Positions 19,383-37,760 of a stretch of DNA of 64,000 nt are shown in pieces. The stretch spans positions 29,987-93,986 of the forward strand of contig JABENI010000001.1 of assembly GCA_013332095.1 (NCBI GenBank), read 5' to 3'. The notes under the pieces were generated by a model. It did no database searches. It had not been told where the DNA came from and saw only the letters and a program-made list of their open reading frames with translations. A program made the translations under genes and the position numbers. How positions within the stretch are numbered: position 1 is the stretch's first letter; every line of letters starts with the position of its first letter. The DNA is from Candidatus Bathyoplasma sp. NZ (lineage in GTDB: Bacteria; Bacillota_I; Bacilli_A; MAG-NZ).

Positions 19383-20792
19383 TTATCCTATTGAACCTTC
19401 CATTTCAAGTTTTATCAATTGATTTAACTCTACGGCGTATTCCATTGGCAATTCTTTTGCGAACGGTTCAATAAATCCCATCACAATCATTTCTAATGAT
19501 TCTTTTTCGGTTAAACCGCGACTCATCAAATAAAATAATTGTTCATCACTTACTTTTGACACAGTTGCTTCATGTTGAATTGTCACCTGGTTATTTTGAG
19601 CAATATTTAAAGGAATCGTATCACTTGAAGATATTCCATCTAAAATTATCGTGTCACACTGAACATTACTTTTAGCATTTATGGCATTTTTATTTTGTAG
19701 TACGGTTCCACGATAATTTACTTTTCCTCCACCGCGTGAAAGTGATTTAGAAATTATTGTGCTTTTAGTATCTGGTGCTAAATGAATCATTTTAGCGCCG
19801 GTATCTTGGTATTGACCTTTCCCTGCAAAAGCAATCGAAATAGTTGTTCCTCTAGCTCCTTGACCTTTTAAAATACAAGCTGGATATTTCATATTACGCC
19901 CACTTCCAATATTTCCATCAATCCATTCCATCAGACCATTTTCCAAAACTATAGCTCTTTTGGTAACTAAATTTATAATGTTGTTTGACCAATTTTGAAC
20001 GGTTGAATATCGGCAGTAGCCATCTTTCATTACAAATATTTCAACAACTGCTGCATGTAAACTATCTTTTGAATACAGCGGTGCGGTACAACCTTCTACA
20101 TAGTGGACACTCGCTCCCTCATCGACAATAATCAATGTTCTTTCAAACTGTCCCATCTGTTCAGAATTAATTCTAAAATACGATTGTAGTGGTTTATCTA
20201 TTTTTACTCCTTTTGGTACGTAAATAAAAGATCCCCCAGACCAAACAGCAGTGTTTAAAGCAGCGTATTTATTATCATTTTGAGCAATTGCTTGTCCCCA
20301 GTACTCCTTCAGCAATTCTGGATATTCTTTTAAAGCAGTATCCGTATCACAAAAGATAACTCCTAAATCATCAAGTTCTTTAATCGTACTATGATAAACT
20401 ACTTCCGATTCAAATTGAGTTGATACTCCTGCTAAATATTTTTGTTCTGCTTCAGGAATCCCTAACTTCTCAAAAGTGTCTTTTATTTCACTGGGAACTT
20501 CATCCCAATTTTTCCCAACTTTATCACTCGACTTAATATAATAAGTATATTCATTAAAGTCAATATCACTTAAATCTGGTCCATAATTTGGATTTTTCAA
20601 CTTTAAAAATGATTTGTAGGCTTTCAATCTAATTTCTGTCATCCATTCAGGCTCATTTTTATATTTTGAAATTGCTAGAACAACTTCTTTACTCAGTCCT
20701 TTTCCAGTATCAATTATTACTTTGGCATCTGTTTTAAATCCATATTTATAATCACTTACTATATCTACAATTTTTTCTTTAGTTTTTTCCAT
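19383..20792 (-). CDS. sufB: Fe-S cluster assembly scaffold SufB
   Basis: SufB is the scaffold component of the SufBCD complex on which Fe-S clusters are assembled. The 469-residue protein has the right-handed beta-helix core and conserved blocks such as [21 protein letters not shown]. The C-terminus includes [23 protein letters not shown], which contacts SufC. It is last in the operon and overlaps sufU by 14 bases. Confidence 0.97.
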
Positions 20793-21213
20793 CTTTCAAA
20801 CACTCCTCCATCGCCTGCCAAGCTATACTAGCACATTTGACTCTAGCAGGAAATTTAGATACACCTGAGTAGACAACAGCGTCACCAATATCTAATTTTT
20901 TGTCATAGTCATTTCCTTTTACCATATTATAATAATTTTCGATAATTTTCAAACTTTCGGTAGTCGTTTTTCCAATTAATGTTTCACTCATAACGGAAGC
21001 ACTACTACAACAGATACTGCAACCACTTCCGATATGGCGAACATCTTCAACTAAGCCGTTTACTACTTTCGTTTGAATAGTAATATCATCACCACATGAA
21101 GGGTTTTTAACTCTAAATTTTACATATTCCTCGTTTTCCACTAACCCTTTATTACGTGGGTTTTTATAGTGATCCATAATAACTTGTCTATATAAATTTT
21201 CTAAATTACTCAT
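20779..21213 (-). CDS. sufU: Sulfur-relay protein SufU
   Basis: SufU is a zinc protein of Bacillota that accepts persulfide from SufS. The 144-residue protein has the expected cysteines: [20 protein letters not shown] and KCASIAW. The Asp in CGDD fits the zinc site. The ATG at 21213 has GGGAG 8 bases upstream and is preferred over a TTG at 21228 that overlaps sufS. Confidence 0.95.
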
Positions 21214-21217
21214 ATTA

Positions 21218-22414
21218 TCAACTCCCAAATTCTTTGAAAAATTTTACTGTTTTTTTTACTGCATCGATAAATTTATCTACATCTTCTAAATCGTTATAAA
21301 GATAAAATGTCGCTCTTAAAGTAGCCGGTACGTTGAGCCATTTAGTCACTAATTGGGCACAGTGATGACCTGCTCTTAAACACACTTTATTTTCATCAAA
21401 GGAACTCGCGGCATCATGTGGGTGAACACCATCAATATTAAACGCTATTATCCCCGTTTCAGCATTTGGATTATAAATAGTCACCCCGGCTATTTGCTGT
21501 AATTGTTCAACCGCATAACTGCGTAATTTATATTCGTGCTTTAAAATCTTTTCCATTCCAATTGATTTTAAATAAAGAACAGCTTCTTGCAGACCAAAAA
21601 CACTCGCAATTGGCATTGTCCCAGTTTCAAATCGATAGGGGCTATCTTTAAAAGTCGCTTCGTACAATTCAACGTTATCATTCATATCTCCACCGAATTC
21701 TATCGGCGGCATGCTGTTAAGCAATTCTTTTTTTCCATACAAAACACCAATTCCTGTTGGTCCACACATTTTGTGTCCGCTAAACGATAAGAAATCACAA
21801 TCTAAAGTTTTACAATCAACAGCTTTATGAGGTACTGCTTGCGCAGCATCTACACTGACCACTGCTCCTGTTTGATGTGCTAATTTAATAATTTCTTCCA
21901 AAGGGGTAATATATCCCATTACGTTTGAAACATAAGTTAAAGCAACTATTTTCGTTTTAGCAGTTAAAACACTTTTAAAGTTTTCAACAGTTATTCTTCC
22001 TTCTTTATTTAGAGGAAGATAAACTAATTTCGCTTTTTTTACTTTAGCAACATGTTGCCAAGGCATTACACTAGAATGATGTTCTAATTCAGAAACAATT
22101 ATTTCATCACCTTCATTTATATTGTCCATTCCATAACTAGAAGCTACTAAATTTAAGGCACTCGATGCCCCTCTTGTAAAGATGACTTCTTCAAACTCCG
22201 CATTGATAAAATCAGCAATAGTTTGTCTGGCTTCTTCATATTTCGCTGTCGCAAGGTAACTTAAACTGTACACCCCACGATTGATATTTACACCATATTC
22301 AGTATAATAATCTTTTATTGCTTCTGTAACTTGTAAAGGTTTTAAACTAGAAGCACCACTATCTAAATAAATTAATCCATCTTTTATTGTTGGAAAATCT
22401 TTTTTGTAATTCAT
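21218..22414 (-). CDS. sufS: Cysteine desulfurase SufS
   Basis: PLP enzyme that takes sulfur from cysteine and hands it to SufU. The 398-residue protein has the PLP lysine in SFSGHKMCGPTG and the catalytic cysteine in CLRAGHHCAQ near the C-terminus. SELEHHSSVMPW is also conserved. Group II desulfurase; the operon order sufC-D-S-U-B is the one typical of Bacillota. Confidence 0.97.
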   Translation of the reverse strand: MNYKKDFPTIKDGLIYLDSGASSLKPLQVTEAIKDYYTEYGVNINRGVYSLSYLATAKYEEARQTIADFINAEFEEVIFTRGASSALNLVASSYGMDNINEGDEIIVSELEHHSSVMPWQHVAKVKKAKLVYLPLNKEGRITVENFKSVLTAKTKIVALTYVSNVMGYITPLEEIIKLAHQTGAVVSVDAAQAVPHKAVDCKTLDCDFLSFSGHKMCGPTGIGVLYGKKELLNSMPPIEFGGDMNDNVELYEATFKDSPYRFETGTMPIASVFGLQEAVLYLKSIGMEKILKHEYKLRSYAVEQLQQIAGVTIYNPNAETGIIAFNIDGVHPHDAASSFDENKVCLRAGHHCAQLVTKWLNVPATLRATFYLYNDLEDVDKFIDAVKKTVKFFKEFGS

Positions 22415-22415
22415 C

Positions 22416-23654
22416 TTAATTTCCCAATTTTCTATTTATAAGATTTTCAAAACATTCTTTTAATTTTTGATTTTCAAAAATATCGATAATCGGTCTAATA
22501 AGACCATTTATCACTAATTTTTCTGCATCTTGTTTACTCAATCCTCTACTCATTAAGTAAAATAACTTTTCATCATCAATTCTTCCTATCGTCGCTCCAT
22601 GTCCTGCTTCAACATCGTGTTCGTCGATTAGTAAAAATGGATTTGCTGCTAGAGTCGCTGTTTTTCCTAAAATAACACCTTTTGTTTTTTGAAATGCTTT
22701 AGAACCACTAAATCCATTAGCCACAATGCCAAAATTATTAAATATAATTCTACTTTTATTCAAGGCAATTCCATGATTAATAATATTACTGAAACTATTT
22801 TTTGCTTCGTGGTAAGTATAAGTATTTATATTTTGTTTTTCAAAACCATCACCAATCACAATAACTTTAACTTCAGCATTGGCCCCTTCTTCTAACAGCC
22901 TAATCGATGTATCCGCCATTATATTAGCATCGCATAAAACAGCTCTTAAAATATCGACACTGCTGTTCGCTTTTGCATTTATTCTAAGAGCAGTATAAAT
23001 TTTATTGTTTGCCTCATACAAATCGATTGAAGTATACTCTACTTTACTGTTAGCAAAAGCCATAATATCAGTTACATTATTTTTAACTGAAGTCTTTTTA
23101 CTGATAAAAAATTCAATGATTTTTATTTTAGAATTTTTTCCACAGCGCATAACTGTTCTATTGATAAAATCGTTGTTATCTTGGATATAAAATATTTTAA
23201 TTTCTTCTTTAAACACGCTGTTAGGTGGAATATCTATCAGTAATCCACTATTGTGATAAGCAGTATTGTAAGCGGTTAAAGTATTTTCTTTAAAACAATC
23301 CGGTTCTTTATTGAAATAATTTAACACTAATTCCGGTTTTTCCTCATAAGCAGTTTCAATGTCGTTTATATACATACTATAAGTCATATCAACTAATTTA
23401 TCATAAATAATATTTCCGTCCTTTATAACCAAAACATTACTCGTATCTTCGGTCACAAAATCAGATATCTCACTCGGTATTTCACCTGAAACATTCAAAA
23501 ACAAATTTTTCATCTTAGAGCTTTTACTGACAAAACTTTTCAAACTAAACTTCCCTAAATTAGGTAAATCTAATTTTTCCATTCTAATCAAAGCTTTTTT
23601 CCTAATATCGACAATTGATTTTTGATTATGTTTAAAAATACTATCAATATTCAT
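22416..23654 (-). CDS. sufD: Fe-S cluster assembly protein SufD
   Basis: SufD is the paralogue and partner of SufB. The 412-residue protein has the C-terminal [29 protein letters not shown] block shared with SufB, including the conserved histidine. The N-terminal half is less conserved. The ATG at 23654 has AAGGAG 8 bases upstream; the GTG at 23660 overlapping the sufC stop is too close to it. Confidence 0.95.
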   Translation of the reverse strand: MNIDSIFKHNQKSIVDIRKKALIRMEKLDLPNLGKFSLKSFVSKSSKMKNLFLNVSGEIPSEISDFVTEDTSNVLVIKDGNIIYDKLVDMTYSMYINDIETAYEEKPELVLNYFNKEPDCFKENTLTAYNTAYHNSGLLIDIPPNSVFKEEIKIFYIQDNNDFINRTVMRCGKNSKIKIIEFFISKKTSVKNNVTDIMAFANSKVEYTSIDLYEANNKIYTALRINAKANSSVDILRAVLCDANIMADTSIRLLEEGANAEVKVIVIGDGFEKQNINTYTYHEAKNSFSNIINHGIALNKSRIIFNNFGIVANGFSGSKAFQKTKGVILGKTATLAANPFLLIDEHDVEAGHGATIGRIDDEKLFYLMSRGLSKQDAEKLVINGLIRPIIDIFENQKLKECFENLINRKLGN

Positions 23655-23659
23655 ATTCA

Positions 23660-24490
23660 CTACTCCTTAATTATTTCTTTAACTGCACAATTACCCAAAA
23701 TAACTCTGTCATCTAAATCAACTGTATCTTCCTCTATCTTAATGCCAAGTTCCTCTTTTATCCAGTCGTAACCTGAAGTATCAATTTTCTCAATTAAATC
23801 GATTCCTCCAGTTTTAACAATTTTACCATTTATCATTATATGGACAAAATCTGGCTTAATATACTCTAACAGTCTTTGGTAGTGTGTAATTAATAAACAA
23901 CCAAAGTTATCGTTTACCATCGCCGCTATATTTTCGCCGACAATTCTTAAAGCATCAACATCTAGTCCAGAATCTATTTCATCTAAAATCGCAATTTTTG
24001 GCTCTAAAACTTTCATCTGTAAAATTTCGTTACGTTTTTTTTCTCCCCCGCTAAATCCTTCATTTAAATAACGATGTGGTAAGTCCTCACGCATTTTAAG
24101 TTCGGCTACGGCATTTTCAAACTTTTTAAAAAATTTTACAAAACTAATTTCATTATCAACGTTCCGTTTATTTAAAGCGGTTCTCACAAAATCAGAATTA
24201 GTAACACCAGGAACTTCTTTTGGATATTGCATTGCCAAAAAAAGACCTGCTCTACTTCTTTCATCAACAGTCATCGACAAAAGATCTTCACCATCTAATG
24301 TAACTGTTCCACTTGTTATCTGATATTTTGGATGTCCCATCACAGCATTGGATAATGTTGATTTACCTGTCCCATTTGGTCCCATAATTGCATGAACCTC
24401 TCCACCATTTATTGTTAAATTTACGCCAGTTAAAATTTCTTTATCACCAACGCTCACTTTTAAATCTTTTATAATTAAACTCGGTTTCAT
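23660..24490 (-). CDS. sufC: Fe-S assembly ATPase SufC
   Basis: ABC-type ATPase of the SufBCD complex. It has Walker A GPNGTGKST, signature FSGGEKKRNEI and Walker B AILDEIDSGLD. The 276-residue length includes a C-terminal tail of about 25 residues beyond the usual end near residue 250. First gene of the operon, with GAGGTG before its ATG. Confidence 0.97.
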   Translation of the reverse strand: MKPSLIIKDLKVSVGDKEILTGVNLTINGGEVHAIMGPNGTGKSTLSNAVMGHPKYQITSGTVTLDGEDLLSMTVDERSRAGLFLAMQYPKEVPGVTNSDFVRTALNKRNVDNEISFVKFFKKFENAVAELKMREDLPHRYLNEGFSGGEKKRNEILQMKVLEPKIAILDEIDSGLDVDALRIVGENIAAMVNDNFGCLLITHYQRLLEYIKPDFVHIMINGKIVKTGGIDLIEKIDTSGYDWIKEELGIKIEEDTVDLDDRVILGNCAVKEIIKE

Positions 24491-24513
24491 TATATCACCT
24501 CTATCTTAATATT

Positions 24514-24542
24514 ATTATATATTTTTACCTTAGTATTGTCTA
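24514..24542 (-). promoter_or_regulatory. Promoter of the suf operon
   Basis: On the minus strand TAGACA (24537-24542) and TATAAT (24514-24519) are 17 bases apart, a good sigma-A promoter about 25 bases before the sufC ATG. I see no obvious IscR-like or other operator. Confidence 0.75.
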
Positions 24543-24685
24543 TTAATATATAAATAATTTTCACTTTTAATAAAAAGTTTTATTTTTTCTCAAAAATAGT
24601 ATTTTCAATAATTACATTTTAACTTCTTCTTCTATAAAAGACATGAATTAACAACAAATTAATTTAAACTTTAACCTTTTTTTAA

Positions 24686-24715
24686 CTAATAAAAAAAGAG
24701 AATATTATCTCTTTT
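24686..24715 (-). terminator. Terminator after apbE
   Basis: A perfect 8-bp stem (AAAAGAGA with TCTCTTTT, 24694-24715) with a 6-base loop is followed by T residues on the minus strand, just past the apbE stop. Confidence 0.85.
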
Positions 24716-24718
24716 AAT

Positions 24719-25804
24719 TTATTTTATTTTAAAACTTTTATCTACTAACTGATAGTTTTTAATATTACTTGAAATATAAATTTCTTTATCTTTGGTAAAG
24801 AAAATTGCTTCCAAATCATCATGTTCTTCTACGTATTTTAATCCCTCTTCTAATCCTAAAATGTATAACATTGTACTGTACGCATCTATTTTTAAATTGT
24901 TGGAACTAACAACTTGAACTGCTAATAAATTATTTTCGACTGGATATCCGGTAGTAGTATTAAAAATATGATGATAAATTTTATTATTTCCAGTAAAATA
25001 TTGTTGGTCAATGCCTGTTTTTGATACTCCGGTATTTGTTTCATTTAATATAAAAATAACATCTTCATTTTCTAATTCCGGATTTGCAGTACCTATTCTA
25101 ATAGGTTCGGTAGTTTCTTTGTAGTAAGTTATTTCCTTATCTACTCCCGCTTCTTTTAAACGATTTCCAAAAACGTATTGTGAACTACTTCCAACGTTTA
25201 TGATTGCGGTAGTAATTCCTTCAGCTTTTAAAAATGTAGCTATGTCATAAGCAATAGTGCCTTTCACAACTGCTCCTAAATCTATTTTGGTTCTTATTTC
25301 CTTAAAACTTATTTCATTTCCTTCGATAATGATGTTTTTATAGTCAACATTCATCAGCGTGCTTTCAATAGCTTCAGCAGATGGAATATTTCCTCCTAAA
25401 TAAAAAGTTGCACCGTTAATTTCCCATAAATCTGCTAACGGTAAAACGGTAGGATCAAACTTCCCCTCTGTTTGCTCCGCTAACTCTAAAGAAACTTCGA
25501 TACTTTTAAGTAACTCATCACTAATAGTGACGGTTCTTGATCCAGCATCTCTATTAACTTTACTCAATTCACTTAATTCATTGTAAACATTGTAAGTTTC
25601 ATCTGCTTTTTTTAGTATTGCTTCTATCTCAACATCGATGCTATCTTTATTTATTTCATCTTGATAATAAAAAGTTACCATTGTAGTAGTGTTTAAATGT
25701 TCATTATAAGTAACGCTATGTCTATAAAATTTTGTATCATCTTGATTTCGACTACAACCACTCAATAAAAGTAACATTGTCATTAACATTAAAAATTTTT
25801 TCAT
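24719..25804 (-). CDS. apbE: FAD:protein FMN transferase, ApbE family lipoprotein
   Basis: ApbE enzymes attach FMN from FAD to a Thr or Ser of exported flavoproteins. The 361-residue protein starts with a lipoprotein signal (lipobox LLSGC, Cys at residue 17). It has the ApbE core: DLGAVVKGTIAYDIA, then INVGSSSQYVFGN and, late, DAYSTMLYILG, the metal-binding Asp region. INVGSS replaces the more usual NxGG(D/N). It has its own promoter and terminator. The neighbouring giant lipoprotein with FMN_bind-like repeats is a likely substrate. Confidence 0.9.
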   Translation of the reverse strand: MKKFLMLMTMLLLLSGCSRNQDDTKFYRHSVTYNEHLNTTTMVTFYYQDEINKDSIDVEIEAILKKADETYNVYNELSELSKVNRDAGSRTVTISDELLKSIEVSLELAEQTEGKFDPTVLPLADLWEINGATFYLGGNIPSAEAIESTLMNVDYKNIIIEGNEISFKEIRTKIDLGAVVKGTIAYDIATFLKAEGITTAIINVGSSSQYVFGNRLKEAGVDKEITYYKETTEPIRIGTANPELENEDVIFILNETNTGVSKTGIDQQYFTGNNKIYHHIFNTTTGYPVENNLLAVQVVSSNNLKIDAYSTMLYILGLEEGLKYVEEHDDLEAIFFTKDKEIYISSNIKNYQLVDKSFKIK

Positions 25805-25836
25805 TCACATCACTCGCTTTCAATTAGACAATCTTT

Positions 25837-25864
25837 ATTATACCAAATAAATTAATAAAAACAA
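25837..25864 (-). promoter_or_regulatory. Promoter of apbE
   Basis: On the minus strand TTGTTT (25859-25864), 16-base spacer, TATAAT (25837-25842). It lies between the cotE terminator and apbE. Confidence 0.65.
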
Positions 25865-25871
25865 CAACAAA

Positions 25872-25909
25872 TCTTAAAAAAGAAAATAGAGTGTTAAAAT
25901 AACACTCTA
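25872..25909 (-). terminator. Terminator after cotE
   Basis: A perfect 10-bp stem, TAGAGTGTTA with TAACACTCTA (25887-25909), has a 3-base loop and is followed by TTTTCTTTTTT on the minus strand. Confidence 0.9.
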
Positions 25910-25927
25910 ATCTACAGACAAAAAAAA

Positions 25928-26422
25928 CTAAAATTCTTCAATAAAATCTTCATTAACATCTATGTTGTCTTCCTCAACTGGATTAAATACACTAACTTTC
26001 ATTTTCGTTTCTCCAATAACCTCAGCTAATACTTCATAAGATATTTCAACTTCAATAGTCAATTCATTTATTGATGCATTTAAACAAGTAGGTTGTTGAA
26101 CCATTTTAACAATAACATCCATATCGCTACTAAGTGTATCTTTTACTACATCTTTTACTATTACATCATTCGTATAATTAATCACCTTTTTAGCTATTTC
26201 GGTTTTTGTATTATTATTTAAAGTATACCAAATATTTATTTCAAAATTTCCATCTAATTCTACTACTGAATCAATTTTATTTGCTGTAAAATTATTATTT
26301 ATTATCCAACATCCTAAAATACTAAATGGCTTCTCCCCTAATTCTATATTTTCAACAGTTTTAAAATTACCTGTTCCTTTACTAACAACTGCTTTTGTAA
26401 CAATTTCTCTAATATTACTCAT
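25928..26422 (-). CDS. cotE: Outer spore coat morphogenetic protein CotE
   Basis: CotE directs assembly of the outer spore coat in Bacillus. The 164-residue protein aligns by eye along its length with B. subtilis CotE: REIVTKAVVSKGTG, SILGCWIINN, INIWYTLNNNTKT, VIVKMVQQPTC, LAEVIGETKM, and an acidic tail. AAGGAGG precedes the ATG. In B. subtilis cotE also lies close to miaB; here a giant lipoprotein gene separates them. It is transcribed alone, between two strong terminators. Confidence 0.93.
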   Translation of the reverse strand: MSNIREIVTKAVVSKGTGNFKTVENIELGEKPFSILGCWIINNNFTANKIDSVVELDGNFEINIWYTLNNNTKTEIAKKVINYTNDVIVKDVVKDTLSSDMDVIVKMVQQPTCLNASINELTIEVEISYEVLAEVIGETKMKVSVFNPVEEDNIDVNEDFIEEF

Positions 26423-26450
26423 GTCTACCTCCTTTTTAAGCGCCTATTCT

Positions 26451-26458
26451 ATAGTATG
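26451..26458 (-). promoter_or_regulatory. Possible SigE-type -10 element of cotE
   Basis: CATACTAT on the minus strand, about 30 bases before the cotE ATG, matches seven of eight positions of the mother-cell SigE -10 (CATACANT). A matching -35 is not clear. B. subtilis cotE does use SigE, but this site is a suggestion only. Confidence 0.35.
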
Positions 26459-26579
26459 CAAAAAATTTTAAAAAGAGCCAAACAAAAAAGAAAATATATT
26501 TATATTTTTGCTAACGATAAAAATACGCTATTAGATAATTAAAATTATCAAACTAGTTAGTCTTTTTATTTTAAATTTT

Positions 26580-26618
26580 AAAAAATAAAAAAGATGTCAT
26601 TTTTTCAAATGACATCTT
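26580..26618 (-). terminator. Terminator of the giant lipoprotein gene
   Basis: A 12-bp perfect stem, AAGATGTCATTT with AAATGACATCTT (26591-26618), with a 4-base loop and a T-run on the minus strand. One of the strongest terminators in the window. Confidence 0.93.
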
Positions 26619-26627
26619 AAATAAATC

Positions 26628-29600
26628 TTATTCAGTTACTACTGGTGCTTCTAGAGTGCTAAGATCTATAGCAGTAACAATATTAAATGTTTGTTTAACA
26701 ACTAATTTTACATCTTCTTCTTCTTCATCAAAATTACCATCTCCATCTACATCAATTCTGTAAGTAATTTCAACAATGAAAGAATTAATATTTGGGTCAA
26801 TACCTGAGAAAACTACAACTGGAAATGCAACTCCAGTTTTATCATAAAATTGACTGTCAGTATCTACATTTTCATTTTCTGTCATATATTCACTATATAC
26901 AACGTCATTTCCAAATTCATCTATTATTCTAACTTCAACTCTTGTATCTTTCTCGCTAACTACTTGTATAGGCTTGTTATCAGTTTTTCCATCATTGTCT
27001 CTTACGTAGTCTTTATCAATTTCTCTGTATTTCTTATTACCATCATTGTCACCAGTGAAGTCCTCAAGAGATAAACTAACAGGTACCTCTATTGCAACAA
27101 AGTTAGTTTTTTCATCGATTTTTCCAAGACGTGCTTCCACATTTTCAGTTAATTTTTCTAAAAGTTCTTCTTTTCCTAAAGCTAATTTAGTAAATGCGAA
27201 TGATTTTTGGCGAATAGTTCCAGTTAAATAATCATCTACATCCGTAATTACATGATTTTGGTTAACATTATCTATAAGTGCTACATGTAATCTATCAGAC
27301 AATGATTCATGGTTTCTTTCTATATTATATATATATTTATTATCAACCTTGTCTAACGGTTCATTCGTAGTTAAAGTATCATAAGATGCAGTCACAGGCG
27401 GAGTCACAGGCGGCACAGGCTGAGTCACAGACAAATCAGCATAACTATCATATCTACTCTGATCGAACCATACATATCTTAATCCGTATACTGAAGTTTC
27501 TTCATCTAATTCGATATTACCTTCAATTGTAACTTTTCCATCATTTAAGATGTTTCCAGCTTTAGCTTCATTTAAAACTTGAGTAATTGCATCTTCTTTA
27601 GTTAATAATCTATAAGTGAATTCTTTAGTTATAGTACTAATATCCTCATCACCACTATCTGTCTTGTATGTAATGCTTAATACAAGTGTTTTAGTTATAG
27701 AACGACCTCCTGACAAAATAACTGGTAGTATGTTTGTACCGAGAAGTGGATCGCCTGCTTCGTCAGTCCATTTAACATTTTCCGCTTTTAATGGATTACC
27801 ATTGTAATGTTTAAAATCTGCGTATGTAACTGTTGGAAGTTTGATATCATCCCCATTTACATCAATTGCATCTTCAATATAAAAATCATTATCCATAGTA
27901 ATATCTTCTGCTAAATTTCCGTTTATTGTAGATGCCGTTAATACTTTAAATGTTTCAGTTCTGGTATACTCAATACCATTCCACTTTAAAATTAATTCTA
28001 CCTCTACTTCAGAATCTGATAAAATCTCTTTTGGGTCAAATTTTTCCTTCTTAATTTCTAATATATCTTCGTCAGCACTATTAAATTCAACAGTAAAGTC
28101 TTTAGTAGTACCAAAATCAAATAACTTAACAGTACCCGTAGTAGTAGGAACTATATCATCATTACCTATATCAACTATATTATCATTAATTATTTTTGTT
28201 CTATAGTCGTCATAATTTCCAGTTACCCATTCATTGTAAGGCGCTAAACCTAACATATAGACTATATTTTTATCTGTATCACTAGTAACAGTTGGCAAAG
28301 ATTTTCCATTTTCATCATCAGTAAATATAGCAACCGTTGATGCACTTAACTTAACTTTTGATTGCAATTGAACTCCTGTAACAGGATCTGCTAAATCACT
28401 GAATTGATCTAAATATAGATTTGCTGTTTCTGATACTACTGCCAATAAGGCATCATTAATTGCGCTTTCAACTGCATCGATAAATTGATTTTCTAATGGA
28501 GCATGTAAGTCACTCTTAGTAAGTTTACCAGTAACAGTTAAAGGTTCATCAGTTTCATAGCTATAACCATCTGCATATTCAGAAGATTGCTTTGTAATTT
28601 CATTTGCATATTCTTGTAAGTAACTTTTCCCTCCTATATTTGTAGTAAGATTACGACCTACCGTTTCATACCAATCAGTGTCGTCATCAGTAGCACCTTC
28701 TTCTTCATTTTCCTCATCTAAACTGAAAGATTCATCATCTCCTAACATTGTGTATGTTGTTAATTTTCCATCATCTCCTACAGTAGTAACATCCATGTAT
28801 AAATTTATAATTCGATCATATCCGTTTGCACTGTGTCCAATTGTACCATCTCCATTTACATTGTCAATTACGAAGTAAACAAACGCTTGGTCTCCATTTT
28901 TATCAGCTGATGATGCTCCATAATACGCACCTTCAGCAAATTCCTCTACTGCTTTAACTTTATCTTTATCTTTATAGATATCAAGTAAACCATATATTGC
29001 ATTATTAACATCTTGTGCTTGAATTAAAGCTTCATTTAATAATACTTGGAATGATTGAACATCTTCTAAAGAAACACCTAAATCAGCATTCAAATCAAAT
29101 ACGTTGCTATTAGTTTCACCAACTACTTTTTTACTAAGTTCACGAATTGCAACTCCCCAGTCAGAATCTAATCCTTGTTTAGTGTAGTTTCCTTGTACTG
29201 GCATTAATGTAGCTAATTCATCAATTTCTTGATCTTCGTCAAGATGGAACTCAATATCCGCGCCTACTGTATATCCCGTTTCATAACCGTCTTCTAGAAC
29301 TTCTTCTTCTCCAGCATATATATAATCGTTACCATCTTCATATATTAATAACGTTTCACTTTCTACTCTTATTCCTGGTGATTTTTGTCGATCATATGTA
29401 TATAATTGACGTTGATCCCCATCTTCATCTGTTATATATGCTGTATCAGTTTGAACTAATTCATCATAATAAACATCTTGAATTTTTCCATGTTTAACAG
29501 TTAAATATAAGAAACTATCATCATTACTAACATGGTATACAGAATCTTGTATTGTTTGACTAACTAATGCAATTTCTTTTTGTACATCGACTAATGGTAA

Positions 29601-30737
29601 GATATCAATAGTTACTCCGGCAATGTTATCAGCATACATTGCTATTACTTCAGTTTCTTCTCCATCTTCATCTAAATCTTCAGTATCCAATACTTTAGTC
29701 GCAGAAATATATCCTTGATTTTTAACAAATGAATCAGCATACAGTGCAGTTTGTCCTGCAAAATCACTATCTAAAACAGACTCAGTTCCACCTTTAGTAC
29801 TTTTGTCGAATTCTACTCCAGTAATTACCCCGTATTGGTCGACTACTATATAACCGAATACGTATTGTACTAATCCTGAGTCAAAGTCTACATCTCTAGG
29901 AGTGTGTGCATAATATAACCCTGGCGTATATGTTCCTTCTACTACAGTTTCACCATATTCATTAGTAGTTACTGGTTCTTCTACTGTATCAGTAGTTCCT
30001 AATGCTGCTTCACCATCTAAAATTTCTTGAACTAAATCAATTAATACATCAACATTAGTTAAATCTACCCCTACAACATTAATAGCAGTTGTCTTATCAC
30101 CAACTACTTTCGTTTGAATACCATAAGTAGTTTGATCGTTTACAATTTTTTCTGCTAATAAATCAGCATCTTTAATCCAACTAAGACCTAAAACTCTTGC
30201 AGTTTCATAAGTACTAATAGTGATTAATTGTTTAATTTCTTGATCAAGCTGATTTTCTAATCCTGAATCATCACCATGAAGCCCATAAATTAAGTCATTG
30301 TCTGTGATTGCATCTGTCTTTTTAGGATAATCTTCTGGTGCTACAGTTGCGTTGTCTAATCTCCTATAAGCATTTGGAACAGTTACTCCATCCCCTTTAA
30401 TTAATACATATAAATTTCCATATGCATCAGCTTTAAACGAACTTCGACTATCTGTATCATTGTAAGCCACACCTGCAATAGTTCCATAACTATCAACAAA
30501 CAAGTTTACCATTGTTACTTTTCCGTTTTCTCCGCTTTCTTTAACAAAATTGAAATAATTCCCCGGTTTATAACTTCTATCATTTATTACATTTGCAGGT
30601 ACTTCCTTTGTTATCTCAATTGTTTCGCCAGGTATTATTACTTCTTTAATAATTTCTATTTCAACAGTTTCCGGCGTACATGCACTTAACGTGATAACGA
30701 ATGCAATAGCCACTAAAATCGAAAATAATTTTTTCAT
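26628..30737 (-). CDS. Giant lipoprotein with four degenerate FMN_bind-like repeats
   Basis: A 1369-residue exported lipoprotein (lipobox LSAC, Cys20). Residues 56-240, 265-398, 399-577 and 598-770 look like four diverged copies of an FMN-binding-type domain. Each opens with a GxYxx strand, then a VxxxVxxD(x)YGxIxxV strand pair, and ends with a G(V)(T/S)-type turn before a helix (DNIAGVT at 370-376, ADLGVS at 551-556). The last 570 residues or so are beta-rich with Ig-like stretches and a PVPPVTPPVT linker (about residue 1110). The likely flavinylation sites are Thr376 and Ser556. It has its own promoter, a leader of about 300 nt and a terminator. The domain call is by eye; the function is inferred. 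Confidence 0.75.
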   Translation of the reverse strand: MKKLFSILVAIAFVITLSACTPETVEIEIIKEVIIPGETIEITKEVPANVINDRSYKPGNYFNFVKESGENGKVTMVNLFVDSYGTIAGVAYNDTDSRSSFKADAYGNLYVLIKGDGVTVPNAYRRLDNATVAPEDYPKKTDAITDNDLIYGLHGDDSGLENQLDQEIKQLITISTYETARVLGLSWIKDADLLAEKIVNDQTTYGIQTKVVGDKTTAINVVGVDLTNVDVLIDLVQEILDGEAALGTTDTVEEPVTTNEYGETVVEGTYTPGLYYAHTPRDVDFDSGLVQYVFGYIVVDQYGVITGVEFDKSTKGGTESVLDSDFAGQTALYADSFVKNQGYISATKVLDTEDLDEDGEETEVIAMYADNIAGVTIDILPLVDVQKEIALVSQTIQDSVYHVSNDDSFLYLTVKHGKIQDVYYDELVQTDTAYITDEDGDQRQLYTYDRQKSPGIRVESETLLIYEDGNDYIYAGEEEVLEDGYETGYTVGADIEFHLDEDQEIDELATLMPVQGNYTKQGLDSDWGVAIRELSKKVVGETNSNVFDLNADLGVSLEDVQSFQVLLNEALIQAQDVNNAIYGLLDIYKDKDKVKAVEEFAEGAYYGASSADKNGDQAFVYFVIDNVNGDGTIGHSANGYDRIINLYMDVTTVGDDGKLTTYTMLGDDESFSLDEENEEEGATDDDTDWYETVGRNLTTNIGGKSYLQEYANEITKQSSEYADGYSYETDEPLTVTGKLTKSDLHAPLENQFIDAVESAINDALLAVVSETANLYLDQFSDLADPVTGVQLQSKVKLSASTVAIFTDDENGKSLPTVTSDTDKNIVYMLGLAPYNEWVTGNYDDYRTKIINDNIVDIGNDDIVPTTTGTVKLFDFGTTKDFTVEFNSADEDILEIKKEKFDPKEILSDSEVEVELILKWNGIEYTRTETFKVLTASTINGNLAEDITMDNDFYIEDAIDVNGDDIKLPTVTYADFKHYNGNPLKAENVKWTDEAGDPLLGTNILPVILSGGRSITKTLVLSITYKTDSGDEDISTITKEFTYRLLTKEDAITQVLNEAKAGNILNDGKVTIEGNIELDEETSVYGLRYVWFDQSRYDSYADLSVTQPVPPVTPPVTASYDTLTTNEPLDKVDNKYIYNIERNHESLSDRLHVALIDNVNQNHVITDVDDYLTGTIRQKSFAFTKLALGKEELLEKLTENVEARLGKIDEKTNFVAIEVPVSLSLEDFTGDNDGNKKYREIDKDYVRDNDGKTDNKPIQVVSEKDTRVEVRIIDEFGNDVVYSEYMTENENVDTDSQFYDKTGVAFPVVVFSGIDPNINSFIVEITYRIDVDGDGNFDEEEEDVKLVVKQTFNIVTAIDLSTLEAPVVTE

Positions 30738-31045
30738 CTTTTTTCCTCCTTGATGATTTTAAATTCCATACTTTTCATTTCTTTTTCAATAGTCGTTAGT
30801 TAGTCACAGTTTTTTTTAGTGTCTTCTTATCTAACAACCATTCCAACTATTATCAAAATAGATAACAGTTCTAAATTTTTCATTTTCATTAACTAAATGA
30901 TTTTTTTTATTTCTTAAATTACGCTACTTCTATTACTTCTAACCCTCTACCGTAGTTGATATTACTATATATTGTAACAACTACGCTAATGCTACAAACA
31001 GTTTTTCGATATTACCCCCTTGTTGTTATATTGATTTACTACCCT
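30738..31045 (-). promoter_or_regulatory. Long 5' leader of the giant lipoprotein gene
   Basis: About 300 nt lie between the promoter and the ATG, with no gene in them. The leader has an 8-bp stem CGTAGTTG/CAACTACG (30951-30985, 19-base loop), a G-run (AAGGGGG near 31015) and an AAGGAGG ribosome site. It does not match FMN riboswitch consensus or any other riboswitch I recognise. Confidence 0.5.
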
Positions 31046-31074
31046 ATTCTATTACTTTATTAATCATATGTCAA
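31046..31074 (-). promoter_or_regulatory. Strong promoter of the giant lipoprotein gene
   Basis: On the minus strand TTGACA (31069-31074), a 17-base spacer, and TAGAAT (31046-31051). This is a near-consensus vegetative promoter, so the lipoprotein is probably made in growing cells and not only in sporulation. Confidence 0.82.
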
Positions 31075-31180
31075 CAGTTTTAGAAAAACTTTTGAATTAA
31101 AAGTGAATAAGTTGTGTATTTCTTATAACTTCCTATTAAATACTATTATATATCCGCCTATTTTATGCATTATCGTGATA

Positions 31181-31216
31181 AAAAAAATAAAAGTGAAGTT
31201 AAATTTCTTCACCTTT
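31181..31216 (-). terminator. Terminator overlapping the end of miaB
   Basis: On the minus strand AAAGGTGAAG pairs with CTTCACTTT (one bulge), with an 8-base loop and a long T-rich tract. The stem includes the last miaB codons. Confidence 0.75.
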
Positions 31217-32632
31217 TAAATAAAAAGTTTTTGCTCCTGTTATTTTTACGGAGACTATTTTACCTATCGAATTCACATCTCCTTTAAAATTCACTAATTT
31301 ATTTTCTCTAGAATATCCACTTAAAAAGTCTTCATCATTTTTACTAACCGAATCTACAAGAACTTCCACTACTTTACCAATATATTGATTGTTTTTGCTA
31401 TTACTTACCTCTTTAGTAACTTCAATTAGTTCATGTAAACGATTTTTCTTTTCTTCTTCACTGACTGTATCCACCAGTTTGGCGGCTGGAGTTCCTTCTC
31501 TTTTTGAATACACAAATGTGAACGCACTATCAAATTCTACTTCTCTATATAAAGTTAGCGTATCTTCAAAATCTTCTCTTGATTCATTTGGAAATCCGAC
31601 AATAATGTCCGTAGTTATAGAAATATTAGGCATATGCTGTTTAAGTAATTTAACTAGATGGATATATTCTTTTTTAGTATATTTACGATTCATCTTCTTT
31701 AAAATATCATCGCTACCTGACTGTACAGGTAAATGAAAGTGCTCCATTATATTGTTCCCACGTGCCATCGCTTCAATAGTTCTCAGATCCAAATCTTTTG
31801 GATGCGAAGTTGTGAAACGAATTCGTTTCATTTCTGTCTTGCTTAACTCTTCAAGTAAATCAGCAAATTTATAATTTATATCTAAATCATTACCATATGC
31901 ATTTACGTTTTGACCTAGCAACGTAACTTCTTTATATCCCTCTTTAACTAATTCTTCAATTTCTAAGATAATATTTTCCGACTTTCTACTTCTCTCTTTT
32001 CCTCTTGTATACGGAACTATACAATAAGTGCAAAATTCATCGCAGCCATACATAATATTAATCCAAGCTTTTTTTAAATTTTTTCTTATTTTAGGAACAT
32101 TTTCAACAATATCTCCTACGTTTGAAAACACTTCTACTACTCTTTCTTTTTGTAAATACGCAGCGTAAATATACTCCGGTAATTTGTGAATATTGTGTGT
32201 GCCAAATACTAAGTCTACATAATGGCATTTTTGTAATATTTTTTCTACTACATTTTCTTCTTGAGGCATACATCCACAAATACCTAAAATTAAATTAGGA
32301 TTAACTCTTTTTAGTGATGATAATCTTCCTAACTCTCCAAAAATTCTCACTTCTGCATTATCTCTAACTGCACAAGTGTTCACTAAAATAATATCAGCCT
32401 CTTCAGGAGCACTACAATTATTAAATCCTAATTTAGTTAATACTCCAGCCATTTTTTCAGAATCTGCTTCATTTCCTTGACAACCATATGTTTTTACCAA
32501 AAAGTTTTTCCCATTTCCGATTTTTTCATATTTCTTTGCTATTGTAAATTCAATTTTATTAACTTTTTCTATCCTTTTTCTAGCAGAACTTAAAGAAGGT
32601 TTTTTAAAGTATTTACTATAATTTTTTTTCAT
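31199..32632 (-). CDS. miaB: tRNA-2-methylthio-N6-dimethylallyladenosine synthase
   Basis: Radical-SAM methylthiotransferase that modifies A37 of tRNAs. The N-terminal cluster cysteines appear in YGCQGNEAD, VNTCAVRDNAE and GICGCMPQEE. The radical-SAM motif is CDEFCTYCIVPYTRGKERSR. A TRAM domain closes the protein. Start at the ATG at 32632 (477 residues), with AAAGGTGA six bases upstream; a TTG at 32659 lies before the likely ribosome site. It requires Fe-S clusters from the suf system in this window. Confidence 0.95.
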   Translation of the reverse strand: MKKNYSKYFKKPSLSSARKRIEKVNKIEFTIAKKYEKIGNGKNFLVKTYGCQGNEADSEKMAGVLTKLGFNNCSAPEEADIILVNTCAVRDNAEVRIFGELGRLSSLKRVNPNLILGICGCMPQEENVVEKILQKCHYVDLVFGTHNIHKLPEYIYAAYLQKERVVEVFSNVGDIVENVPKIRKNLKKAWINIMYGCDEFCTYCIVPYTRGKERSRKSENIILEIEELVKEGYKEVTLLGQNVNAYGNDLDINYKFADLLEELSKTEMKRIRFTTSHPKDLDLRTIEAMARGNNIMEHFHLPVQSGSDDILKKMNRKYTKKEYIHLVKLLKQHMPNISITTDIIVGFPNESREDFEDTLTLYREVEFDSAFTFVYSKREGTPAAKLVDTVSEEEKKNRLHELIEVTKEVSNSKNNQYIGKVVEVLVDSVSKNDEDFLSGYSRENKLVNFKGDVNSIGKIVSVKITGAKTFYLKGEEI

Positions 32633-32662
32633 ATTATTCACCTTTGTTTCACTTTTCAATAA

Positions 32663-32676
32663 ATTATATCACGTAT
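32663..32676 (-). promoter_or_regulatory. Extended -10 promoter of miaB
   Basis: TGATATAAT on the minus strand is an extended -10 (TGn-TATAAT). The full 14-mer ATACGTGATATAAT is identical to the one before metF (56263-56276). It lies about 30 bases before the miaB ATG. The -35 is weak. Confidence 0.65.
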
Positions 32677-32794
32677 CAATAAATAATAATATAAATATAA
32701 AAAAATAACGTTGCACTATTTATTTATATTTATAAATTCTTTATCGGTATTTTAAAGATGATTAAATTTATTAAAATAATTTATCAAGTTATTA

Positions 32795-32851
32795 AAAATA
32801 AAAAAGAAACTGCAATAAATAGAATAAAATTCTATTTATTTACAGCCCCTT
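32795..32851 (-). repeat. 57-bp repeat, copy 1: terminator-like hairpin after spoVS
   Basis: Identical over 57 bases to 60658-60714, the right end of the IS1182-type element. On the minus strand it forms a long hairpin (CTGTAAATAAATAGAA against TTCTATTTATTGCAG) followed by a T-rich tract. It lies 25 bases past the spoVS stop, so it can act as the spoVS terminator. It includes the IS end GGGGCTGTAAA, but no matching left end is nearby. It may be a solo IS end. The surrounding 32677-32876 region has no gene on either strand that I can support. Confidence 0.85.
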
Positions 32852-32876
32852 CTTTTTATCATAATAATCTATCAGA

Positions 32877-33137
32877 TTATCTTGCTTCAATAATTAATTT
32901 AATTGCTGTACGCTCTTCACCATCAATTATAACGTCCGCAAACGCTGGTATACAAATCAAATCTTTCCCTGTTGGTGCAACATATCCTCTGGCAATCGCA
33001 ACTGCTTTTACTGCTTGATTTATTGCTGCTGCTCCCACAGCTTGCATTTCAACCCTTCCATTTTCTCTAAACGCATTTGCTAACGCCCCTGCCACTGAAT
33101 TTGGTTTTGATTTACTTGATACTTTTAATACATCCAT
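32877..33137 (-). CDS. spoVS: Stage V sporulation protein S
   Basis: An 86-residue Alba-like-fold protein that affects septation and spore coat formation in B. subtilis. The sequence MDVLKVSSKSKPNSVAGALANAFRENG is highly conserved across the family. GGAGG precedes the ATG. It lies between ymdB and miaB as in B. subtilis. The protein also occurs in some non-spore-formers, but with cotE and gpr here it supports sporulation. Confidence 0.97.
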   Translation of the reverse strand: MDVLKVSSKSKPNSVAGALANAFRENGRVEMQAVGAAAINQAVKAVAIARGYVAPTGKDLICIPAFADVIIDGEERTAIKLIIEAR

Positions 33138-33256
33138 TTTTAATCCTCCTATTTTTTCATTTGATACTAATATTATTCGTATCTTTATTAATTTATGACC
33201 AATATTACCATAAATAAATTAATAAATTTGTCATTTATTGTTTTATTTATTATTTA

Positions 33257-34036
33257 TTATTTTTTTATATTTATAGTGTATATATTTTCTACTTTATTCG
33301 TAATATCATTAATTTCAATTACTGTGCTATTAAACTGTCTAGGGCCGCTTTCAAACACTGTAAACCTATTTGGAAGACCTGTAATAAATTTATTTATTAC
33401 GCCTTCTTTACTCACTCCAATAACTCCATTTAAAACGCCATTCATTCCAACATCAGTTTGATAAGCAGTTCCTTTAGGTAAAATTCTAGCATCTAACGTC
33501 GGGACATGTGTATGTGTTCCGATAACGGCTGAAACTCTACCATCTAAATAATATCCTAAAGCAATTTTTTCACTGGTTACTTCTGCGTGGAAATCTACAA
33601 AGATAATATCTGCTTCAATTTCTTCTAACAATTGATCAGCAGTTTCAAACGGACACTTATTTGGTCCAGGCAAATAAATACTTCCTATCAAGGAAATAAC
33701 TGCCACTTTTTTACTGTTGTAGTTAAGTATTTTATATCTTAACCCTTCTTTAACGCTGTTTGCATAATTAGCTGGAATAATTAAATTATTTGCTTCACTG
33801 ATAAAATCAAAAATATTATGATTATCCCAAGTATGGTTACCCATGGTTACCACATTCACTCCCATAGTCAAGAACTTTTTATAAATTTTTTCGGTAATAC
33901 CTTTTCCATGTGCAGAGTTTTCACCGTTTAAAATTACAATGTTGATATTATGTTCACTTCTAATTTCTTTTAAATATTTTTCAACTATTTCTCTACCAGG
34001 AGCAGCGAATACATCTCCTATAAATAAAATCTTCAT
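33257..34036 (-). CDS. ymdB: YmdB family metallophosphoesterase
   Basis: A 259-residue calcineurin-like phosphoesterase. Metal-ligand motifs are visible: FIGDVFAAPGRE, LNGENSAHGKG, MGNHTWDN and GTHTHVPT. B. subtilis YmdB hydrolyses 2',3'-cyclic nucleotides and affects biofilm regulation. It follows rny by 45 bases, the usual pair. Confidence 0.94.
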   Translation of the reverse strand: MKILFIGDVFAAPGREIVEKYLKEIRSEHNINIVILNGENSAHGKGITEKIYKKFLTMGVNVVTMGNHTWDNHNIFDFISEANNLIIPANYANSVKEGLRYKILNYNSKKVAVISLIGSIYLPGPNKCPFETADQLLEEIEADIIFVDFHAEVTSEKIALGYYLDGRVSAVIGTHTHVPTLDARILPKGTAYQTDVGMNGVLNGVIGVSKEGVINKFITGLPNRFTVFESGPRQFNSTVIEINDITNKVENIYTINIKK

Positions 34037-34081
34037 ATTTCTTCTCCTAAACTAACAACTTCTACCATTAAAGAATTATAT

Positions 34082-35641
34082 TTATTTCGCCACATCTACC
34101 GCTCTAGTTTCTCTAATAACAATAACTTTTATCGTGCCAGGATAAGCCATTGTTTTTTCAATTTTTTCTTTAATTTGTCTAGCAATTGTATGTGCCTTTA
34201 AATCGTCAATTTCTTCAGGTCTAACTACTACTCGTATTTCACGACCAGCTTGAATAGCATATGCTTTTTCAACACCTTCAATTTTATTAGAAATTTCTTC
34301 TAATTGTTCTAAACGTTTAACATAATTTTCAATTGATTCACTTCGTGCACCTGGTCTAGCTGCACTTAATTTATCTGCTGCAGCAACTAAAACAGCAATG
34401 ATTGTATTTGGTTCTTGATCGCCATGGTGCGATGCAATACCATCAATAACTTCTCGTTTCTCTTTATATCTCTTAGCTAGAGAAATCCCAATATCAACGT
34501 GACTTCCCTCAATTTCGTGATCTACACCTTTTCCGATGTCATGAAGTAATCCCGCTCTTCTAGCTAACAATTCATTTTCACCTAACTCTGCTGCCATTCT
34601 TCCAGTAAAAAATGCGGTTTCAATAGAATGTTTTAAAACATTTTGACCGTAACTTGTTCTATATTTAAGTCTCCCAATTAGTTTGACTAAATCTGGATGG
34701 ATTTTTCCAATACCAGTTTCAAACACTGCCTGTTCACCAGCTTCACGAATTTCAATGTCAATCTCTTTACGACATTTCTCCACTAATTCTTCAATTCTAG
34801 CTGGGTGAATTCTACCATCTGCTACTAAACTATCTAAAGTTTTTCTAGCAATTGCTCTTCTAATTGGGTCAAATCCCGATAATACTACTGCTTGCGGAGT
34901 ATCATCAACAATTAAATCAACACCTGTCAATGCTTCAATTGCTCTAATATTACGACCTTCTCTACCAATGATCCGACCTTTCATATCATCACTTGGTAAA
35001 TGAATTACTGAAACTGTTCTCTCTGTCGTAGCATCATTAGCATAGGCCATAATTGAATTTGCTAAAATCATTTTTGCCTTTTTATCAGCTATCAATTTAG
35101 CCTCAAACTCAGCATCTTTGATATAACTAGAAATCTCATTAGCCATATCCGATTCTACTTTTTCCATAATTAATTTTTGTGCATCTGCAACATTAATTTT
35201 AGAAATTTCAATTAATTTTTTCTCTTGTTCACTAATTAAATCTTTCATTTGAATATTTTTTTCTTCTAATTCAATTTTTTTAGAATCTAACTGATTTTCT
35301 TTTTTATCTAAAGATTCATCACGCCTATCTAAATTAGTAGCACGACTGTCTAACCGGTCTTCTCTTTGTGCTAACCTTTGTTCAACATCTACTACCGCTT
35401 TTGTTCTCTCTTTTAAATCTTTATCAGCTGCTTGCTTTATTGTAAAAATTTCTTGCTTGGTTTCAATAATAGTTGATTTTCTTCTTTTATCCGCTTCATT
35501 TGTTGCATTTTCTATAATTTTATTAGACTCTTTTTTAACTGACTTCATCGTGCGACTATCAATTATAATTTTTCCTATCACACCTAGTACTAGTCCAATA
35601 ATAATAAATAGAGCAATGCTCAATAATCCAATTTCCTCCAC
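34082..35641 (-). CDS. rny: Ribonuclease Y
   Basis: Membrane-bound endoribonuclease that starts mRNA decay. The 519-residue protein has an N-terminal membrane helix (about residues 5-25), then a long coiled coil (about 30-190). A KH domain with [15 protein letters not shown] follows, then an HD domain with LLHDIGKG. All parts are complete. In B. subtilis RicT assists this enzyme. Confidence 0.97.
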
Positions 35642-35701
35642 TTCATACCTCCATAAGTTCCATTAAAGCAACTACAATTGCTCTTTTCTGACACTGTAAA
35701 A

Positions 35702-35730
35702 AGTATACACTATTTTTCAATTTTTAACAA
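35702..35730 (-). promoter_or_regulatory. Promoter of rny
   Basis: On the minus strand TTGTTA (35725-35730), a 17-base spacer, TATACT (35702-35707). It lies after the recA terminator, about 60 bases before the rny ATG. Confidence 0.75.
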
Positions 35731-35751
35731 TCAATTTACAATTTACTTTAT

Positions 35752-35780
35752 AAATAAAAAAGTTAGATTGACTAACTTTT
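35752..35780 (-). terminator. Terminator overlapping the recA stop codon
   Basis: AAAAGTTAG pairs with CTAACTTTT (35758-35780), with a 5-base loop, and T-rich sequence follows on the minus strand. The stem includes the recA stop. Confidence 0.85.
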
Positions 35781-36758
35781 CATTATTTCTCTTATTTTCT
35801 TCTCAATTTCTCCTAAAATTTCTAAATTATCTTTTAGGTATTTTTTAACATTTTCTCTACCTTGTCCGATTTTTTCTTCTTTATAAGCAAACCATGAACC
35901 ACTTTTCGCAATTATATCCATTTGAACGGCTAAATCTAAAACTTCACCGGTTTTAGAAATTCCTTCTCCGTATATAATATCAACCTCTACTATTTTAAAC
36001 GGTGGGGCAACTTTATTTTTAACAATTTTTATTTTTGTCTTATTTCCAATAAATTCAGTACCGATTTTAATTGCTTCCGAACGTCTGATATCTACTCTAA
36101 TTGTTGAATAAAATTTTAGTGCTCTCCCCCCAGGTGTAACTTCTGGGTTTCCAAATACTATTCCAACTTTTTCTCTCAATTGATTAATAAATATCGCAAC
36201 TGTATTTGTTTTAGAAATTGCTCCTGATAATTTACGCATTGCTTGACTCATTAATCTCGCTTGTAACCCCATATGACTCGCACCCATATCACCTTGTATT
36301 TCCTGCTCAGGAACTAGTGCTGCCACTGAATCTATTACTAAAATATCAATTGAACCACTTCTAATCAACGCTTCTGCAATTTCTAATCCTTGCTCCCCTG
36401 TATCTGGTTGTGACAACAGTAGTTCGTCAGTATTGATACCTAATTTATTTGCATAAACAGGATCTAATGCATGCTCTGCATCTATAAATGCTGCATTCCC
36501 ACCAGCTTTTTGACATTCAGCAATTGCATGCAAGGCAAGTGTTGTCTTTCCTGAACTTTCAGGTCCAAAAATTTCTATAATTCTACCTTTTGGATAACCA
36601 CCAACACCTAGAGCATTATCTACTAAAATAGAGCCACTTGATATTGATTCAATTTCCACATGAGCACGATCCCCTAATTTCATAATCGAACCTTTACCAT
36701 ATTGTTTTTCAATCATTTTTATTGCATCTTCTAATGCTTTTGTTCTTTTATCACTCAT
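35772..36758 (-). CDS. recA: Recombinase RecA
   Basis: DNA strand-exchange protein and trigger of the SOS response. The 328-residue protein has Walker [10 protein letters not shown] near residue 66, [11 protein letters not shown], and the DNA-binding loop 2 region [10 protein letters not shown]. It lacks the long acidic C-terminal tail of some RecA proteins. It follows pgsA by 5 bases. I see no GAAC-N4-GTTC SOS box before it; expression must come through pgsA, or from inside that gene. Confidence 0.98.
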
Positions 36759-36763
36759 CTTTT

Positions 36764-37297
36764 TTACCTCTCACTAAATACTATCTCTTTATTTTTTATA
36801 CCGTACTCTAGACCCGAGATAACTGTTAAAAATAGCGATAAATAAATTAGCCAAGTTCCAATTAAACTTACAGTTCCTGTCAATAACATATTAAAATATA
36901 ATATTATTACTGTTAACATAGTTAAAAATGTTTTGGCTTTTCCTAATTTACTCGCTACAATTACTTTACCCGATGCTCCTGCTACTAATCTGATTCCTGA
37001 AACTAAAAATTCTCTACTCAAGATAATTATCACTATCCACGTTGCTATAACTCCTGCATCAATAAATAATAATAAAGATGCCATAATCAATAACTTATCT
37101 GCTAGTGGATCCATTAATTTGCCAAAATTTGTTACTAGATCATATTTTCTTGCAATATAACCATCTAAATAGTCGGTAATTGAAGCTCCGATAAATAGTA
37201 TTAGCATTATTAAATAATTTTGATTATAATAATAAACAAATATTATCACTGGTATCATTATTATTCTTAACATTGTCAATTTATTTGGTAAATTCAT
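36764..37297 (-). CDS. pgsA: CDP-diacylglycerol--glycerol-3-phosphate phosphatidyltransferase
   Basis: Makes phosphatidylglycerol phosphate in the membrane. The 177-residue protein carries the CDP-alcohol phosphotransferase motif [12 protein letters not shown]...[10 protein letters not shown], with all Asp residues, and several membrane helices. ATG at 37297 with AGAGGTG six bases upstream; a GTG at 37306 is less likely. The promoter shows an extended -10 TGATATAAT near 37330. B. subtilis has cinA between pgsA and recA; it is absent here. Confidence 0.94.
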
Positions 37298-37350
37298 TTT
37301 CAGCACCTCTCTCTTACCAAATATTATATCATATTTTGACTGTTAATTTA

Positions 37351-37749: not shown

Positions 37750-37760
37750 ATTACAGTATA

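Follow-up and report, generated by a model that had tools for sequence, protein, structure and literature searches.

A giant lipoprotein with four divergent FMN_bind-like repeats and one, possibly two, plausible flavinylation sites, encoded next to cotE and apbE in Candidatus Bathyoplasma sp. NZ

Proteins with 2-13 FMN_bind domains are common in Gram-positives and have been described as multi-flavinylated proteins that may resemble multi-heme cytochromes in their action, and multi-flavinylated RnfG is mentioned in the same survey (Meheust 2021, PMC8238504). Domains of the FMN-bind2 subtype are approximately 160 aa long, carry insertions between strands 1 and 2 and after strand 3, and often occur in two or four copies (Huang 2024, PMC11334425). 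Two such multi-FMN proteins, SaFMN3/CbFMN4, which bear three and four covalently bound flavins, have been produced and studied (PMC10339131). The lipoprotein described here was compared with these proteins and with the smaller FMN_bind lipoproteins related to the PDB chain 2KZX.

The window, defined as the whole 64,000-nucleotide stretch of DNA that was analysed, comes from a genome of 1.82 Mb in 44 contigs that is 97% complete. The initial annotation had located a giant lipoprotein gene, cotE and apbE in it, and open reading frames together with Pfam placed all three genes where they had been put. The features of the locus are as follows.

31199-32659, minus strand: miaB, an ORF in the window
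26628-30737, minus strand: giant lipoprotein gene, 1369 aa, its signal peptide bearing the lipobox LSAC, assigned from the ORF and FMN_bind homology
26618-26591, minus strand: terminator-like hairpin 3' of the lipoprotein gene
25928-26422, minus strand: cotE, outer spore coat protein (PF10628, 3.4e-44)
25909-25887, minus strand: terminator-like hairpin 3' of cotE
24719-25804, minus strand: apbE, FAD:protein FMN transferase lipoprotein (PF02424, 2.3e-60), lipobox LSGC
23660-24490, minus strand: sufC, start of the suf block, the suf names coming from reading of the ORFs

Rfam gave no RNA element at 20000-38000. Relatives of the source genome include Mycoplasmatota bacterium zrk6 (CP074575.1) and two MAGs, one classed as Bacilli (JAGYLA01) and one as Mollicutes (CAJYBF01).

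FMN_bind was not matched anywhere in the lipoprotein by Pfam or NCBIfam (hmmscan), which returned signal-peptide noise alone. The search with PF04205, proposed as a check when the FMN_bind assignment was made, was accordingly negative for the window lipoprotein, and the best homolog stayed below the cut-off of 22 with 16.1 bits (E=0.019), nearly the whole model being covered. A profile of full-length homologs run against the PDB gave a single chain, 2KZX (E=0.0013), and a profile of the repeats run against the whole PDB gave one significant chain, again 2KZX, at E=4.6e-8 and aligned over nearly its full length. The 2KZX sequence is itself FMN_bind by Pfam (PF04205, 2.6e-7). Relatives of 2KZX were gathered from other genomes, hereafter the 2KZX-like family, and the resulting independent profile recovered every lipoprotein homolog (E=1e-26 to 7e-5), with the window lipoprotein at 1.2e-5. 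Among 400 shuffles and 348 neighbour ORFs searched as controls with the same profile, none scored better than 0.01, leaving aside FMN_bind proteins and the lipoprotein family's own homologs or remnants. Reciprocal class-wide profile searches converged on the same genes in four genomes (G007, G010, G012 and G018); the many class-wide matches that covered about the first 60 positions were signal peptides and were disregarded. A broader FMN_bind profile, built on RnfG-type proteins, proved too distant and was discarded, the 2KZX-like family being the proper comparison.

The protein consists of a signal peptide with lipobox, four FMN_bind-like domains and a C-terminal region of approximately 580 aa. 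The copies were cut from ten sequences of the lipoprotein family and compared profile against profile with HHalign; the percentages below are probabilities against the 2KZX-like family, for which all controls were below 1%.

30000-30578, minus strand: copy 1, residues 54-246, in which about 60 inserted residues separate the sheet from the first helix; 96.8%
29541-29948, minus strand: copy 2, residues 264-399; 98.1%
28974-29546, minus strand: copy 3, residues 398-588, with an insertion after the sheet like that of copy 1; 96.8%, aligned across the domain's C-terminal half
28383-28943, minus strand: copy 4, residues 599-785; 98.7%
26631-28370, minus strand: C-terminal region, probably atrophied Ig-like domains, judged only from sub-threshold aBig_2 matches in homologs

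Between the copies, HHalign probabilities were 98% for copies 1 and 2, 95-97% for 1 and 3, 96% for 2 and 4 and 90% for 3 and 4, the pairs 1-4 and 2-3 matching more weakly than the others, and the controls stayed low, with no more than 9% for reversed sequences and 0.4% for the C-terminal half of the lipoprotein. Four diverged repeats, as the initial annotation had described them, are thus borne out by most pairs, and the relation of all four to FMN_bind is borne out by their matches to the 2KZX-like family. By these profile comparisons the repeats are very probably divergent FMN_bind domains. An additional segment behind the sheet makes copies 1 and 3 longer than the short copies 2 and 4; this alternation suggests that the four-domain part arose by duplication of a two-domain unit.

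Structure prediction was attempted at two scales. The AF2 model of residues 45-792, made from nine sequences, was of low confidence (pLDDT 47), and its Foldseek matches were rejected as meaningless. Copy 2 modelled from 20 repeat rows gave a pLDDT of 75 and the order b-b-b-a-b-b-a, with Thr376 right before the last helix. When this model was searched against the PDB with Foldseek, no FMN_bind structure was among the 50 matches listed. The initial annotation had named a missing structural match as refuting its proposal; with a model built on 20 self-similar sequences the search was not read as a refutation, but it does count against the proposal.

The column of the flavinylation site was compared with 41 domains of the 2KZX-like family, where the consensus is D (29/41), T/A/S, G (35/41), V or A (38/41), T/S (40/41) and I. 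The following codons of the window lipoprotein fall on the column.

30063-30065, minus strand: Asp225, copy 1, flavinylation position that has lost its hydroxyl
29610-29612, minus strand: Thr376, copy 2, best candidate site, D-N-I-A-G-V-T, Thr/Ser in 9/9 sequences
29070-29072, minus strand: Ser556, copy 3, weak candidate site, N-A-D-L-G-V-S, Thr/Ser in 5/7 sequences

Thr376 and Ser556 had been singled out beforehand as the residues keeping the hydroxyl, and both do occupy the column under exactly these numbers; the loss of the hydroxyl from copies 1 and 4 was likewise correctly noted. The DNIAGVTI of copy 2 fits the 2KZX-like consensus in full and agrees with the relaxed form of D-x-x-(S/T)-G-A-(S/T), not with the strict form. 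In copy 3 the G-V-S alone is kept, the Asp at -6 and the S/T/A at -3 from Ser556 being missing. The column of copy 1 holds Thr/Ser in half of the sequences (5/10), and in copy 4, where the window lipoprotein has no Thr/Ser, Ser is found in 4 of 7. The lipoproteins of the relatives retain three or four sites, and the homologs in which the Thr/Ser of copy 2 is conserved are 22-44% identical to the window lipoprotein. In a model protein, a change of A to V just before the acceptor gave approximately 50% flavinylation, removal of the site's first Asp had minor effects, and Ser was a poorer flavin acceptor than Thr (PMC12052999). Together with the fit of the sites, these mutation effects make a good candidate of Thr376 and a poor one of Ser556, and a covalent flavin is predicted as likely on Thr376.

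In several respects the lipoprotein resembles described proteins. Like the multi-flavinylated FMN_bind proteins it is extracytosolic, has more than one FMN_bind domain (four) and ends its site in G-x-(T/S), but it goes undetected by PF04205, keeps one or two of four sites (Thr376 plausible, Ser556 weak), carries the C-terminal extension of about 580 aa and has no dedicated ApbE gene adjoining it in the source genome. Its likeness to multi-FMN-bind2 proteins is one of size and insertion only, with an even number of domains (four) of about 140-190 aa and a post-strand-3 insertion in alternate copies. With the 2KZX-like lipoproteins, among which we presume the PplA-like lipoproteins to belong, it shares the domain by profile, the lipoprotein nature and a D-x-x-(S/T/A)-G-(A/V)-(T/S) site; the 2KZX-like proteins compared have one or two detected domains in about 140-380 aa, whereas the window lipoprotein has four in 1369 aa. 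RnfG/NqrC belong to the same superfamily, and two RnfG are encoded in the source genome, but RnfG is anchored by a transmembrane segment and encoded within an Rnf operon, and the lipoprotein copies gave less than 16% HHalign probability against the RnfG-type profile. By analogy, the lipoprotein would function, if at all, like known multi-FMN_bind proteins. The initial suggestion of a new architecture was too strong, since proteins with up to 13 FMN_bind domains and four-domain FMN-bind2 proteins are known (PMC8238504, PMC11334425); what sets the lipoprotein apart is the divergence past the reach of Pfam, the partial loss of sites and the long C-terminal extension.

The gene neighbourhood was examined in the window and in the relatives. 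No acceptor or partner gene adjoins the lipoprotein gene, the listed neighbours being miaB, cotE and the suf genes. The window apbE is the sole ApbE gene of the source genome, and its product retains the His and Asp-x-x-Ser-Thr motif regions. As the two Rnf complexes, encoded with RnfG in two operons, need ApbE, the window ApbE must serve Rnf too. In zrk6 and in genome G001, apbE stands directly before sufC, the first gene of sufCDSUB, without the lipoprotein or cotE, and the window ApbE is 36-40% identical to such suf-linked ApbEs and 25% to lipoprotein-linked ApbE. It is therefore more likely a general enzyme than the dedicated partner of the lipoprotein. The position of apbE directly upstream of the suf operon was observed in three genera (window 21218-25804, L056:9375-14034 and L060:8048-12518), although why a flavin transferase should accompany genes of iron-sulphur assembly is not obvious. 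In zrk6, cotE follows ymdB, spoVS and miaB and has neither the lipoprotein gene nor apbE beside it.

An ApbE and lipoprotein system wrapped around cotE, as first annotated, did not hold up against this comparison, since apbE goes with suf in two relatives and cotE with miaB in one, and terminator-like hairpins lie between the genes. It could be argued from the gene order and common strand in the window that the three products, lipoprotein, CotE and ApbE, work together as a unit, such as a flavoprotein in or on the spore coat. The hairpins 3' of the lipoprotein gene and of cotE speak against such a unit, as do the separate placement in zrk6 of cotE behind miaB and of apbE before sufC, each without the other two genes, and the presence of the lipoprotein family in G001, G003 and G036, where cotE was not detected (the G001 and G003 assemblies are incomplete). 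The lipobox moreover points to the cell membrane, and a spore-coat link of the lipoprotein was rejected because of synteny, so that a single unit is highly improbable. From the suf-linked apbE, the miaB-linked cotE, the hairpins and the single ApbE needed by Rnf, the most fitting view of the adjacency is that a lipoprotein gene and two conserved blocks happen to be neighbours, cotE having no part in the proposed redox function.

Paralogs of the lipoprotein were found in other surroundings. In zrk6, which has four intact genes of the family, an ApbE lipoprotein gene (PF02424, 2.4e-56) ends 73 bp before a 1302-aa lipoprotein paralog, the pair being flanked by a NuoEFG-like hydrogenase on one side and the S10 operon on the other, and an Rnf operon whose RnfG has three FMN_bind domains is situated about 12 kb upstream; apart from RnfG, the hydrogenase and Rnf names come from reading of the ORFs. 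The same pair occurs in G003 with apbE broken by a stop. This lipoprotein-linked apbE, 60-75 bp upstream of the paralog in both genomes, differs from the window type, and its presence beside the paralog in two relatives is indirect support for a link between ApbE and the lipoprotein. The S10-operon site holds an intact paralog in zrk6 and G001 and a decayed remnant in the source genome (L026:5116-8194, contig C32), where many stops and frame breaks were seen, so the function of the lipoprotein family is not kept universally. Adjoining the remnant is an open frame (L026:9344-15001) that runs for at least 1885 aa and encodes bacterial surface Ig-like domains.

Further loci with related genes were recorded. 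Three tandem full-length lipoprotein copies lie downstream of a beta-propeller protein (PF09826) in zrk6 at L019:6022-16897, with no ApbE there. RnfG with three FMN_bind domains was seen in Rnf operons of zrk6 (L055:7585-9318) and G036 (L059:11411-12901). Small lipoproteins are encoded beside Rnf operons of G036 (L059:5255-5932) and zrk6 (L055:11913-12188), with rhodanese-like lipoproteins adjoining, and the one in G036 has at its C-terminus an FMN_bind-like site, FTGTSVS, to which Pfam gives no match. A fumarate-reductase-like lipoprotein with an N-terminal FMN_bind domain in zrk6 (L057:11329-13095) is likely another ApbE client. In the source genome, a repeated 261-aa membrane-protein ORF and an rnfD fragment beside an Rnf operon (L027:13510-18097, contig C22) represent either a recent tandem duplication or an assembly artefact.

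Taken as a whole, the data are on balance in favour of the lipoprotein being a flavin carrier at Thr376. The exported protein would present four diverged FMN_bind domains, paired long with short, on a C-terminal stalk that is probably Ig-like. The single general ApbE, which would also flavinylate the Rnf subunits, would attach FMN to Thr376 and possibly to Ser556, and copies 1 and 4, with their sites lost, may act as scaffold. We infer that the covalent flavin would be reduced on the outside of the membrane, with the RnfG of either Rnf complex as the simplest donor, and would hand its electrons on to an extracellular acceptor. Against this reading stand the missing Pfam and NCBIfam matches, the two lost sites and the weak context of Ser556, the Foldseek listing for copy 2, the low confidence of the four-domain model, the decayed paralog, the suf linkage that explains why apbE is near, and the lack of an adjoining acceptor or partner gene.

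The repeats may alternatively have lost their flavin in the source species and serve as structural or ligand-binding modules, for instance in adhesion or matrix, with ApbE working for Rnf alone. Two of the four sites are gone and one more is weak, the domain is invisible to Pfam, ApbE is suf-linked and needed for RnfG, and the paralog in the source genome has decayed, all of which would agree with such a loss. Yet the Thr/Ser of copy 2 has persisted in 9/9 sequences despite the low identity of the homologs, three or four sites are kept in the relatives, and an ApbE gene adjoins the paralog in two genomes; complete loss of the flavin is accordingly judged rather unlikely. A chance likeness of strand pattern in an unrelated fold could account for the Foldseek search with the copy-2 model, but it leaves unexplained why the repeat profile hits 2KZX and no other PDB chain significantly, why all four copies match the 2KZX-like family with clean controls, and why the reciprocal searches land on the same genes in other genomes, and we give it next to no credence.

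With the flavin-carrier reading preferred, a wider picture can be drawn very tentatively, and we regard it as doubtful in its entirety: giant paired-domain flavin lipoproteins invisible to Pfam, found almost exclusively in a single bacterial family and amplified to four intact genes in zrk6, would conduct electrons at the cell surface, with Rnf and an NADH-linked hydrogenase feeding them and a dedicated ApbE in some members. Within the lipoprotein family the number of retained sites falls from four to one or two, a natural series in which the motif changes tolerated by ApbE can be studied. Surveys of flavin-based extracytosolic electron transfer depend on the Pfam FMN_bind model, and large multi-domain relatives can escape them altogether, so that the number of such systems in Mollicutes-related Bacilli may be underestimated.
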